A DNA stretch of 64,000 nucleotides from Thermoleophilaceae bacterium (GTDB lineage: Bacteria; Actinomycetota; Thermoleophilia; Solirubrobacterales; Thermoleophilaceae), in contig JAUJNZ010000002.1 in NCBI GenBank assembly GCA_030447905.1, positions 168,569-232,568 of the forward strand, in the 5' to 3' direction. A program made the position numbers and the translations under genes. This document shows, piece by piece, positions 24,676 through 30,791 of this stretch (positions are counted from its first letter, which is position 1; each line of letters starts with the position of its first letter). Under the pieces are notes generated by a model. The model had not been told where the DNA came from. It worked only from the letters and a program-made list of their open reading frames with translations, and made no database searches.

Positions 24676-24741
24676 CGGAGCGGCGATGGAAGCGAACCCT
24701 GCAAGCGGAGGGCTGCTCCGCCCTGCGGTTTTGAAGACCGG
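24676..24741 (-). tRNA. 3' fragment of a selenocysteine tRNA (partial, copy 1)
   Basis: Read on the minus strand this has CCGGT CTTCAAA ACCG, an anticodon stem and loop with the TCA anticodon, then a long variable arm with GCGGAG/CTCCGC stem and CAGCC loop, a degenerate T arm containing GGTTCGCTTCC, and the acceptor 3' strand GCCGCTCCG. The 5' half (which should begin GGAGCGGC) and D arm are absent, so it cannot be functional. Same part, same orientation at 30729. The variable and acceptor parts of the two are identical. Confidence 0.72.
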
Positions 24742-24824
24742 AGGTTTGACTGACTCGCCAGCCTTGAGTCGGTTGCACTCCGCTGAAGAATGGCAAAAGC
24801 GAGTTGGCCCGACATACTCGTGCT

Positions 24825-25220
24825 ATGAGCGATCGCAACGTCCTCGGTGGAGAGCTTGAGCTCTGCGGTCACGACCCCCTCACCGGCTTCTATCGGGACG
24901 GGTGCTGCCGCACGGGTCGCGAAGACCGGGGCAGTCACACGATCTGCGCAGTGGTGACCGCGGAGTTTCTCGAGCACCAGCGTCGCATCGGCAACGACCT
25001 CAGCACGCCGAGGCCCCTATTTCACTTTCCGGGGCTCGTGCCGGGCGCCCGGTGGTGCGTTACCGCGGCAAACTGGCTGCGCGCTCACGCCGATGGAGCG
25101 GCCGCCTACGTCGTCCTCGCGTCCACCCACGAACGGGCCCTTGAGATCGTTCCGCTCGCCGCGCTACAAGAGCATGCCGTCGACGTCCCTGGGGATCCCG
25201 GCGTGCTCGGCGATACCTAG
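24825..25220 (+). CDS. DUF2237 family protein
   Basis: A 131-residue protein matching DUF2237 end to end: NVLGGELELCGHDPLTGFYR, DGCCRTGREDRGSHTICAVV, GNDLSTPRPLFHFPGLVPG, RWCVTAANWLRAH and ATHERALE-like STHERALEIVPL. The conserved cysteines (about 14, 27, 28, 41, 75) suggest metal or redox chemistry, but the function of the family is unknown. Start ATG 24825. Its stop overlaps the end of the convergent ABC-F gene by 4 bp. Confidence 0.9.
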   Translation: MSDRNVLGGELELCGHDPLTGFYRDGCCRTGREDRGSHTICAVVTAEFLEHQRRIGNDLSTPRPLFHFPGLVPGARWCVTAANWLRAHADGAAAYVVLASTHERALEIVPLAALQEHAVDVPGDPGVLGDT

Positions 25221-27115
25221 CCACCGGCTGCCTCCAGCCGTGCGTAGGCCTCCTCGACCTGGCGCTTGGCGCCGGCGTGGCGCTCGGAGGAGGAGGCCGA
25301 GCGCTCGGGATCCGACCAGGCGGAGGGATCCGCCAGCTCGTCCTCGACGCGTGTCAGAGCGGCCTCGGCGGCCACCACCTCGCGCTCCAGCCCGGCGTGC
25401 AGGCGCTTTGCGTTCTTCGATGGGCCCGCCTTGGCGTTGCGCTCCTCTCGGGCCCTCGGCGCCCTCACGGCCCTCGGCTTGGCTGGCCTGAGCGGCTCAG
25501 GGGACCGCCTGGCCGCACGGCGCTCCGCGCGGACCTGGACGTACTCGGCCCAGCCGCCCTCATAGGAGCGAAGCTCGCCCTCCTCCACCGCGAGCGTGCG
25601 GCTGCCCACCGCGTCCAACAGCGCGCGGTCGTGCGAGACGAGCAGCAGCGATCCCGGGAATCCGCGCAGCGCGTCCTCCAGCGCCTCGCGGCTCTCGAGG
25701 TCGAGATGGTTGGTCGGCTCGTCGAGCACGAGCATGTTGGCGCCGGAGTTCACGAGCACGGCGAGCGAGAGGCGCTTCAGCTCGCCTCCAGAGAGCCCCG
25801 CTACCGGCTTCTCCGCCTCCTCTCCCGAGAAGAGGAAGCGCCCCAGCAGCGCGCGCGCCTTGCCCGGGGTGAGTCCGGTGGCGCGCTGGGTGGTCTCGAG
25901 CACGGTGCCCTCCCCGTCGAGCTCTTCGGAGTGCTGGGAGACGAAGCCCAGGTGCACGTTGTGCCCGACCGAAAGCTTTCCCGCAGGCAGCTCGCGCCGG
26001 CCGGCCAGAGTGTCGATCAGCGTGGTCTTGCCGCTGCCGTTGGCGCCCACGAGGGTCACGTGCTCGCCGCGCTCGACGTGCACCGCGGCGTCCTCGAGCA
26101 GCACCCGCCCGGAGACCTCGATCCGCCCGCCGCGCAGCTCGAGAACCACGCGCCCGCTTCGCTCTGGCTCCTTGAACGTGAACGAGAGCTCGCGCGAGTC
26201 GCGCGGGTCAAGCTCGATCCGCTCCATCTTGTCGAGGCGCTTGACCCGCGACTGCGCTTGCCGTGCCTTGGAGGCCTTCGCGCGGAAGCGCTCCACGAAG
26301 CGCTCGAGCCGCGCGATCTCGGCCTGCTGGCGCTCGATCGCGCGGCCGAGCGCGATCTCGCGCGCGGCCTGCTCCCTGCGCCACGCGTGCCACGGACCCT
26401 TGAAGAAGCGTGAGCGCCCGGCCTCGAGCTCGAGCACCGAGGTTCCGACGGCCTCCAGAAACCAGCGGTCGTGGGCCACCAGCACGACGGCGGCGTCGAG
26501 TGCCCGCAGGTGGGCCTCGAGCCACTCGAGCGAGGCGATGTCGAGGTGGTTGGTGGGCTCGTCGAGCAGGAGCAGGTCGGGGTCGCCGGCGAGCGCGCGC
26601 GCGAGCGAGGCGCGCGTGAGCTCGCCGCCCGAGAAGGTCGAGAGCCGGCGGTCAAGCTCCTCGTCGTCGAACCCGAGCCCCCGGACGGTGGTCAGGGCAC
26701 GATCGCGCCAGCGATAGCCGCCGCGCAGCTCGAAGCGTTCCTGGGCCCTCCCATAGGCGGCCAGCGTGGGCTCGTCGTGCGCGCCCTCGGCCATGGCCTG
26801 CTCGAGGCGGGCGAGCTCGGCCTCGAGCGCGGCGACCTCCCTCGCCCCGGACAGTACGTAGTCACGCAGGCTCAGGTCGCGCTCGCGCGGGGGACGCTGG
26901 TCGTGGAGGGCAATCTTCGCGCCCTTCTGCCGCGAGAGGGAGCCGCTGTCGACCGATGCGTCCCCGGCCAGCATTCGCAGCAGCGTGGTCTTGCCCGAGC
27001 CGTTGCGCCCGGACAGGGTCAAGCGGTCGCAGCGCTCGAGCTTGAACGAGACCCCGCTCAGCAGCCGCCGCCCGGCGACGTCCTTGGTCAGATCGGATGC
27101 GATCACGACGGCCAT
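25217..27115 (-). CDS. ABC-F family ATPase
   Basis: A 632-residue soluble protein with two ATP-binding cassettes and no membrane domain. Cassette 1 has Walker A SGRNGSGKTTLLR (about 37), signature FSGGELTRASLA and Walker B LLLLDEPTNHLD; cassette 2 has VGANGSGKTTLID (about 350), signature LSGGELKRLSLA and MLVLDEPTNHLD. The linker between them is long and helical (about 230-310), and a charged coiled-coil tail ends the protein. ABC-F proteins bind the ribosomal E site, acting in translation rescue or antibiotic protection. Which subfamily cannot be told by eye. Confidence 0.92.
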   Translation of the reverse strand: MAVVIASDLTKDVAGRRLLSGVSFKLERCDRLTLSGRNGSGKTTLLRMLAGDASVDSGSLSRQKGAKIALHDQRPPRERDLSLRDYVLSGAREVAALEAELARLEQAMAEGAHDEPTLAAYGRAQERFELRGGYRWRDRALTTVRGLGFDDEELDRRLSTFSGGELTRASLARALAGDPDLLLLDEPTNHLDIASLEWLEAHLRALDAAVVLVAHDRWFLEAVGTSVLELEAGRSRFFKGPWHAWRREQAAREIALGRAIERQQAEIARLERFVERFRAKASKARQAQSRVKRLDKMERIELDPRDSRELSFTFKEPERSGRVVLELRGGRIEVSGRVLLEDAAVHVERGEHVTLVGANGSGKTTLIDTLAGRRELPAGKLSVGHNVHLGFVSQHSEELDGEGTVLETTQRATGLTPGKARALLGRFLFSGEEAEKPVAGLSGGELKRLSLAVLVNSGANMLVLDEPTNHLDLESREALEDALRGFPGSLLLVSHDRALLDAVGSRTLAVEEGELRSYEGGWAEYVQVRAERRAARRSPEPLRPAKPRAVRAPRAREERNAKAGPSKNAKRLHAGLEREVVAAEAALTRVEDELADPSAWSDPERSASSSERHAGAKRQVEEAYARLEAAGG

Positions 27116-29754: not shown

Positions 29755-29951
29755 ACATCAACGTCAATTTGAACGTCGCCAACTTCTTCGAGGCCTTTGG
29801 AAGCATAAGAGCGAAGAGGTCGATGCCTCGCCCGAGTAGACCGCGGGGGTGTGTCTTCCGCTTCGGGCAAGGCGGGCCTGAGCCAAGGCGGACCTCGACG
29901 TGATCGCGGATGTAGCCAGCGTAGGACACTGACGACCGAGCTGCGACCGAG

Positions 29952-30380
29952 CTAGGTCTGCGGGCGGTGCCGCATCTCCGAGAGGACCACTCCATAAAGC
30001 AGATGGTCGCTCGCTAGCGCAATTCGGTCGACGAGCCGCCGCTCCTTAGCGTGGGTCAGCCCGAGCAGCGGGGCGACGCCGAGCTCGAAGCCGAGCCAAA
30101 TGAGGACCCCGTACACCGGACCGGCCCACAGTCGGCGCCGAACCGACTCGGGGAGCAGGCCGAAGAGCGTCCCGCCCACCGCGCCAAAGCCCCAGTGAGT
30201 TAGCTCGATCATAGCCACACGACGCTTCCTCGGGACGCGCCTCAGCAGCTTGTGCGGCTTCCTTTGGTTTGCGATCACCTGGGGTGGCGATTGCTCGACG
30301 AGGCCGGATTGGACGGTGAAGGTGCGGAGACCGGTCATGGCCGTCGCCCCGATCGCTCCCCGGAGGGTCGCGTGCGCCAT
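29952..30380 (-). CDS. small membrane protein, conserved hypothetical
   Basis: A 142-residue protein: MAHATLRGAIGATAMTGLRT then VEQSPPQVIANQRKPHKLLR, a hydrophobic segment LTHWGFGAVGGTLFGLLPE and VYGVLIWLGFELGVAPLLGL, and a hydrophilic end. The pattern (helical hairpin with TGLR and HWGFGAVGG) resembles DUF1440/YagU-type membrane proteins. No operon partner. Confidence 0.55.
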   Translation of the reverse strand: MAHATLRGAIGATAMTGLRTFTVQSGLVEQSPPQVIANQRKPHKLLRRVPRKRRVAMIELTHWGFGAVGGTLFGLLPESVRRRLWAGPVYGVLIWLGFELGVAPLLGLTHAKERRLVDRIALASDHLLYGVVLSEMRHRPQT

Positions 30381-30728
30381 CTCGCCGAGGAGCGTGCCTT
30401 CGCTCGATCCCGGCCGTGGTTCCGCGCTTGCCTCCACATACGGCAGCCTACCTGGCACGTGGCGCCCGGGGTCGAACGGTCGATAATGCTCGCCGCTGGC
30501 ATGGCCCCCTCTGCTCGCGGGTCTCGACGCGCTCGCTCGATCGCCCGCGTCGCCCGAGCGCGACGCGGCGGGTGAAGCGCAGGCCCAGAGACACCGCGAC
30601 CGAGCCTGCGTGCGATCGGCAGGAGTGCCGGCACACCTGCGATTTCGGCCAATGAGCCGAGAGTCGCCGCCCAAGGCCGGCTCGGCCTGCCCATCCGAGA
30701 AAGCGCTACTGTGCAGGCCTTCTCACCA
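30381..30728. other. non-coding gap with a dispersed repeat
   Basis: About 350 bp with no gene. Contains the repeat at 30608-30635 also found inverted at 44532-44559. Confidence 0.35.
30608..30635 (+). repeat. dispersed repeat, copy 1
   Basis: The core GCGATCGGCAGGAGTGCC and its flanks match the reverse complement of 44532-44559 at 27 of 28 positions. A third, shorter match lies at 54858-54879. Confidence 0.55.
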
Positions 30729-30791
30729 CGGAGCGGCGATGGATCGAACCATCCAAGCGGAGGGCTGCTCCGCCCTGCCGGTTTTGAAGAT
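30729..30791 (-). tRNA. 3' fragment of a selenocysteine tRNA (partial, copy 2)
   Basis: Same part of a tRNA-Sec as at 24676: CTTCAAA loop with ACCGG stem side, GCGGAG/CTCCGC variable stem with CAGCC loop, a T arm with GATGG/CCATC and TTCGAT, and acceptor strand GCCGCTCCG. The matching 5' stem half is missing, so sequence identity ends within the anticodon arm in both copies. Confidence 0.7.

Follow-up and report, generated by a model that had tools for sequence, protein, structure and literature searches.

A 64,000-nucleotide stretch from a draft genome of the Solirubrobacterales (2.58 Mb in 25 contigs, 95.3% complete, estimated contamination 3.1%) is described here and called the window (G000:C21:168569-232568, where G000 is this genome, C denotes a contig and other G numbers the genomes of relatives). 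Within it, two 3' halves of selC, the gene for the selenocysteine tRNA (tRNA-Sec), enclose 6 kb with five open reading frames (ORFs), among them those for an ABC-F type ATPase, a fatty-acid desaturase and a cyclopropane/mycolic-acid synthase-like methyltransferase (CMAS), as listed in Table 1. Copies of the half are named by coordinate: the 24.7-kb and 30.7-kb copies in the window, and C24:93.8k, C24:95.2k and C13 elsewhere in the genome.

An earlier reading, made from the sequence alone, had taken both fragments for the 3' half of a tRNA-Sec gene, in the same orientation. This identification was borne out by R1, a covariance model for the 3' half of tRNA-Sec, used for placing the fragments and for scanning 232 genomes of the order. 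CTTCAAA and the TCA anticodon are retained in both copies. A 20-mer common to the two occurs exactly twice in the window, against a mean of 0.04 matches in shuffled sequences, even allowing 3 mismatches. The further claim, that both copies lose identity within the anticodon arm, holds for the 30.7-kb copy, which breaks off immediately before TCTTCAAA, and fails for the 24.7-kb copy, in which the entire anticodon arm is kept (TCCGGTCTTCAAAACCG, one G lost). Neither fragment is a whole tRNA: in the window, ARAGORN found none and Rfam none at gathering scores, and at E up to 1 Rfam listed only the 24.7-kb copy (25.8 bits, E 0.089).

The intact gene was located at C24:158581-158672(-), the only one in the genome over the cut-off of the Rfam tRNA-Sec model (68.7 bits). 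Both fragments match it over the whole 3' half, and thus over more than the variable arm, the 24.7-kb copy with 58 matches, 3 mismatches and 1 gap against the 62-nt core; a repeat family unrelated to selC is thereby ruled out. A BLAST search with a 65-bp fragment gave six strong copies: besides both window copies, these are selC, C24:95219, C24:93823 and C13:4; the match ranking below them has an E of 0.04. On the strand of selC, the two C24 halves follow it at distances of 63 and 65 kb, so that displaced 3' fragments stand downstream of an intact tRNA gene and share its orientation; likewise in G047. The C13 copy sits at a contig edge and its 5' side is therefore cut off. Three of the six cores, those of selC, C24:93.8k and C13, show no difference over 62 nt, and the C24:95.2k core carries damage at its anticodon loop. 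On the anticodon-loop side of this last copy there is what, by eye, resembles a piece of an IS21-type transposase.

In five of the six copies, among them selC itself, the core continues into one common tail and a region of ~190 bp, hereafter the arm, which holds a second, inverted AGTGCCnGCACA-like site. The tail pattern, allowing 2 mismatches, is present at six places in the genome: selC, four halves, and one place 136 bp further from selC. The left arm of the window, core included, is 82.5% identical to C24:93706-93888 over 189 columns. Pairwise identity among the five arms ranges from 72 to 93%, while the flank of the 24.7-kb copy reaches 58-65% against them; since unrelated 190-bp pieces of the window average 63%, and 7 of 298 such pairs attain 72%, the shared arm is absent from the 24.7-kb copy, and the weakest arm pair depends mainly on the shared tail. 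On its other side, the 24.7-kb copy bears a different arm, the putative right arm, which resembles the 5' sides of C24:93.8k and of a half displaced in G018, a genome from another genus, with 0 of 2000 shuffles in each comparison; C24:93.8k and the G018 half resemble one another more weakly (78 of 2000). In the same arm comparison, the 5' sides of the 30.7-kb and C24:95.2k copies gave no match.

The tail is not a natural flank of selC. Allowing up to 3 edits, it was not found at 22 of 25 selC loci of other genomes, being exact in G003 and present with 3 edits in G002 and G117: element-specific arms thus stand beside the cores here and are missing from the empty sites of relatives. Integration into a tRNA gene leaves one element arm behind the restored gene and the other ahead of the far scar; stacked junctions carry both. 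By this anatomy, selC would be of the restored-gene kind, the 24.7-kb copy of the far-scar kind and C24:93.8k of the junction kind; identical cores and diverged arms would be expected of a site in which the core has to agree with the host gene. Inside the window both arms point into the 6 kb, which can therefore be read as a single unit.

Table 1. Features of the window (positions within the window; unit ends are named according to the reading proposed in the text)
Feature	Position	Strand	Remarks
Second flank gene, same conserved block as 3189..4082	904..2646	+	C21:169472-171214
Flank gene, orthologue near selC in relatives	3189..4082	-	2.4-11.9 kb from selC in 8/15 genomes
selC 3' half, core of putative right (attR-type) unit end	24677..24737	-	R1 67.7 bits; without shared arm
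Putative right element arm	24738..24778	-	CCGACTCAAGGCTGGCGAGTC at 24752-24772
DUF2237 protein	24804..25220	+	PF09996, 166.9 bits
ABC-F type ATPase	25217..27115	-	PF00005, PF12848
Fatty-acid desaturase	27482..28552	-	PF00487, 108.6 bits; 17/51 genomes
CMAS	28477..29697	+	PF02353, 110.4 bits; 8/51 genomes
ORF with weak DUF1440 match	29952..30674	-	PF07274 26.8 bits, under cut-off of 34.7
Putative left element arm	30608..30729	-	Tail with AGGCCTGCACAG at ~30705-30722; inverted site TGTGCCGGCACT... at 30611-30635
selC 3' half, core of putative left (attL-type) unit end	30730..30790	-	R1 86 bits; 61 of 62 matches and 1 gap vs intact selC
Lone left-arm copy, inverted, without tRNA half	44474..44572	+	87.9-89% to C24 arms over ~100 bp; site C21:213100-213124

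The model of the 3' half found matches in 80 of the 232 genomes and more than one copy in seven: six copies here, four in G047 and two each in G082, G100, G176, G194 and G225. Both copies of G082 are whole genes. The displaced half at G100:C353:2235-2297 is called part of a tRNA-Leu(gag) by ARAGORN, probably a false call. In G047, assembled as one contig, selC at 646010 is accompanied by halves at 647748, 651631 and 659479, all on the plus strand and within 13.5 kb, and by a truncated half at 658743 (25.8 bits). The halves are preceded by CAGCATGCAAG, which differs by one base at the truncated one. Behind selC and the three whole halves runs an arm with 79-87% identity among them, and between their cores no more than 1 of 62 positions differs. 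The G047 array is thus a series of RNA-gene 3'-end repeats, each beside a non-host motif, an arrangement only partly visible in the present genome, where the copies are spread across three contigs. Apart from a weak 42-bp match in G208, the G047 arm was found in no other of the 232 genomes.

Two alternative origins of the halves can be weighed on these data. The tRNA half with its arm could be a small tRNA-derived repeat, dispersing without site-specific recombination at selC: halves on three contigs would suit it, as would arms duplicated on their own, such as the additional tail next to selC, 136 bp beyond the first, and the lone inverted arm of Table 1. We regard this as improbable, since only six tail sites are present in 2.58 Mb, the cores stay constant while the arms diverge, selC itself bears an arm, and the halves are serial downstream of selC on C24 and in G047. 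Still less credit can be given to an artefact of assembly or binning, by which repeats were misjoined or strains mixed in the draft. C13 does start within the repeat, as is typical of assembly breaks, and the contamination estimate stands at 3.06%; yet the two window copies differ from one another and from selC, so that collapse is unlikely, and the same build is found in the single contig of G047.

As cargo, the G047 array carries genes for an FG-GAP protein, a RidA-type protein, DUF7668, RlaP, RtcB and a sigma factor, and a protein with a nucleoside deoxyribosyltransferase match under the cut-off and a weak TIR match. The latter (19.4 bits) was the only trace of defence genes in the array. 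RlaP and RtcB (positions 4143-4988 and 5766-7073 of G047:C1:650001-670000) form an RNA-repair pair. A protein of 121/122 aa in two G047 units was considered as a shared first gene, and had no relative in the other loci then compared.

As to the recombinase, none of the five ORFs of the 6 kb matched an integrase in Pfam, and no PF00589 match was found at C21:193-199k; serine recombinases were likewise missing among the ORFs scanned, no genome-wide search having been made for them. In G225, the distance between a selC half and an intact integrase, next to a tape-measure gene in a phage-like region, is 58 bp; selC is therefore used for integration within this order. Broken integrases occur in C13 within 15 kb of its scar. 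In G047, by contrast, all six tyrosine-integrase matches lie more than 600 kb from the array, the nearest at ~655 kb. The broken C13 genes are related to an intact integrase at C24:304094-305356, which was set aside as maker of the scars because it lies near tRNA-Glu and tRNA-Lys rather than selC, and which, given these relatives near the C13 scar, stays a weak candidate. The small integrase-bearing gene set C24:304094-306365 also has a broken relative at C13:10057-14420, two companion proteins being matched by eye. A search for the exact att motif in viral contigs gave 0 matches; in genome contigs it gave 2, the contig of G003 and one without a tRNA half (by eye), taken as chance.

The use of selenocysteine, present or past, also expected from the sequence-only reading, is corroborated by a selB gene over the cut-off at C1:11038-12105 (285 bits). 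selB exceeds the cut-off also in G002, G015, G019 and G047, with a partial match at a contig start in G003; it does not in G006, G020, G022 and G035, all without a selC match.

The neighbourhoods of selC were compared in 15 genomes with an intact gene. In the eight where the orthologue of the flank gene 3189-4082 was detected (Table 1), it lies on the 3' side of selC in six and on the 5' side in two (G014 and G019); it was not shown in the other seven, four of which had less than 5 kb available on that side. The 24.7-kb scar is 20.6 kb from this gene, with its 3' side towards it. The scar thus lies within the old selC neighbourhood, since rearranged. G003 holds a degenerate half without an arm, followed by orthologues of C13:151k and C21:166k. 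The orientation of selC relative to its neighbours flips between two genomes of one genus (G019:C1:62348 and G029:C116:11502).

The cargo of the 6 kb is mixed. Full-length orthologues of the ABC-F protein were found in 7 of 9 relatives searched (92% identical in G003, 76% in G019, down to 59% in G047), the incomplete G001 and G002 yielding only the distant paralogue. Its neighbours are no guide to an ancestral place: none is shared among 8 genomes, except for one 29% match between G005 and G017. For the desaturase, G001 and G002 are 91% identical to each other and both 73-79% identical to this genome, the level of other genera; 11 other G002 proteins are 74-96% identical to their counterparts here, 10 of them at least 87%. 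The gene is thus unusually distant from that of G002; however, since G001 and G003 are more distant from this genome in general, acquisition is only suggested. CMAS is absent from all three congeners in the 51-genome search (the counts in Table 1 include this genome), and adjoins the desaturase in three (G016, G024 and G027) of the seven other genomes bearing it. On this distribution, the desaturase/CMAS pair may have been acquired. The start of the DUF1440-like ORF is doubtful, because its 5' part overlaps the arm.

The match to selC, the arms of element type, missing beside selC in most relatives, and the series in the same orientation give good support to the halves as integration scars. 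We propose that elements of one family carry the selC 3' half, as core, between arms of their own, and would recombine with the chromosomal selC at or beside the anticodon loop; the core of the element would rebuild the gene, and the old 3' half would be displaced to the far end. Later elements, entering the same site, would leave core-plus-arm junctions between units. In the window, the 30.7-kb core with its arm would be the left end and the 24.7-kb core with the other arm the right end of one unit of 6 kb, devoid of an integrase of its own and presumably moved by one acting in trans, with a lipid-modifying gene pair and genes having host-wide orthologues as cargo; a later rearrangement, or further insertion, would have parted it from the intact selC. 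This account as a whole, scars of elements recombining at selC and the 6 kb as one integrase-less unit, is held with moderate confidence.

Several findings weigh against it. The unit lacks a recombinase and contains the widely inherited ABC-F gene; the intact selC is on another contig; the flank gene is farther from the scar than from selC in any of the eight relatives, and is on the opposite side of selC in two of them; none of the known right ends has a match in the 5' flank of the 30.7-kb copy; and the lowest arm identities are within the reach of unrelated pairs. The earlier term "island" therefore fits the 6 kb only in part: the patchy CMAS and the distant desaturase agree with it, while the ABC-F orthologues across the family, the missing integrase and the separate selC do not. 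In another reading, the halves are scars and the 6 kb is host chromosome, trapped between the left and right ends of two old elements after deletions or inversions between att repeats. This we consider rather unlikely. The inheritance of the ABC-F gene, the rearranged neighbourhood, the duplicated gene fragments around several scars and the lone inverted arm at 44474-44572 speak for it, but it requires the loss of two other ends, and CMAS, in its distribution and its pairing with the desaturase, looks like moving cargo. One unit of 6 kb is thus the more likely reading.

Elements at tRNA genes are not new. The selC islands of enterobacteria are large, single and endowed with an integrase; they share the docking gene with the present units, which are small and serial. 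Integron cassette arrays are rows of small recombinase-less units sharing one recombination site; here, unlike in these, the G047 array has no integron or other tyrosine integrase beside it, the site is a tRNA half, and the units are multi-gene, with genes on both strands. Among the literature matches listed, no title concerned selC arrays in the Solirubrobacterales, which does not prove that none exists.

The tRNA and tmRNA (transfer-messenger RNA) islands of Islander combine, as seen here, an intact tRNA gene with displaced 3' fragments that share its orientation, and a break at the anticodon loop corresponds to its subsite A (PMC4383910). In 2168 genomes, it counts 4 tandems of at least 3 islands and requires an integrase for each island (PMC4383910); the units here, without one, would fail that filter, and the intact gene of the window pair lies on a different contig. 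Closer in build are the tandem ssrA islands of Dehalococcoides, where serial units, many without an integration module, are marked by RNA-gene 3'-end repeats with a conserved non-host motif beside them (PMC3146451). They differ in using tmRNA and its T-loop, in a serine recombinase module, of which the ORFs scanned here gave no sign, and in a motif shorter than the present arm (PMC3146451). The kind is thus already known, from tRNA-gene islands and ssrA-type tandem arrays, and rows of small integrase-less units at selC are unusual. selC would then serve repeatedly for integration in an uncultured order of actinobacteria, where integrase-less units accumulate in series, and such arrays would escape island finders that require one integrase for every island. 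The 6-kb unit, with exact ends defined, can be tested as such, and a gene enclosed by tRNA scars is not necessarily foreign.

A broader and quite doubtful extension is that of a selC cassette system in the Solirubrobacterales: small recombinase-less units, sharing an att module made of the selC 3' half and the ~190-bp arm, would be shuffled in trans at selC, in the manner of integron cassettes though with a tRNA half for a site, and would acquire genes of the host, in this case the single ABC-F of its type in the genome, their sites acting as breakpoints that reorganise the chromosome.

Other repeats lie around the scars. Part of an alpha-amylase-type gene (19897-21534) recurs inverted and truncated at 31011-31639, beside the 30.7-kb scar, with 97.6% identity, and at C13:398-533, near the C13 scar, over 136 bp with 100% identity. 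Pieces of a PhoD-like gene (window 31666-32889) recur at 94-96% near other scars, at C24:153129-153604 and C24:94466-94791. Proteins with a Clp_N domain are found within 2.5 kb of three left ends, at C24:92255-92959 and C24:155335-156168 (by Pfam) and C13:2235-2954 (by similarity only). Two further long repeats involve 4614-5105 and 39521-40012 of the window (90% over 493 columns), and 17171-17877 of the window and C24:77043-77746 (96% over 708 columns).

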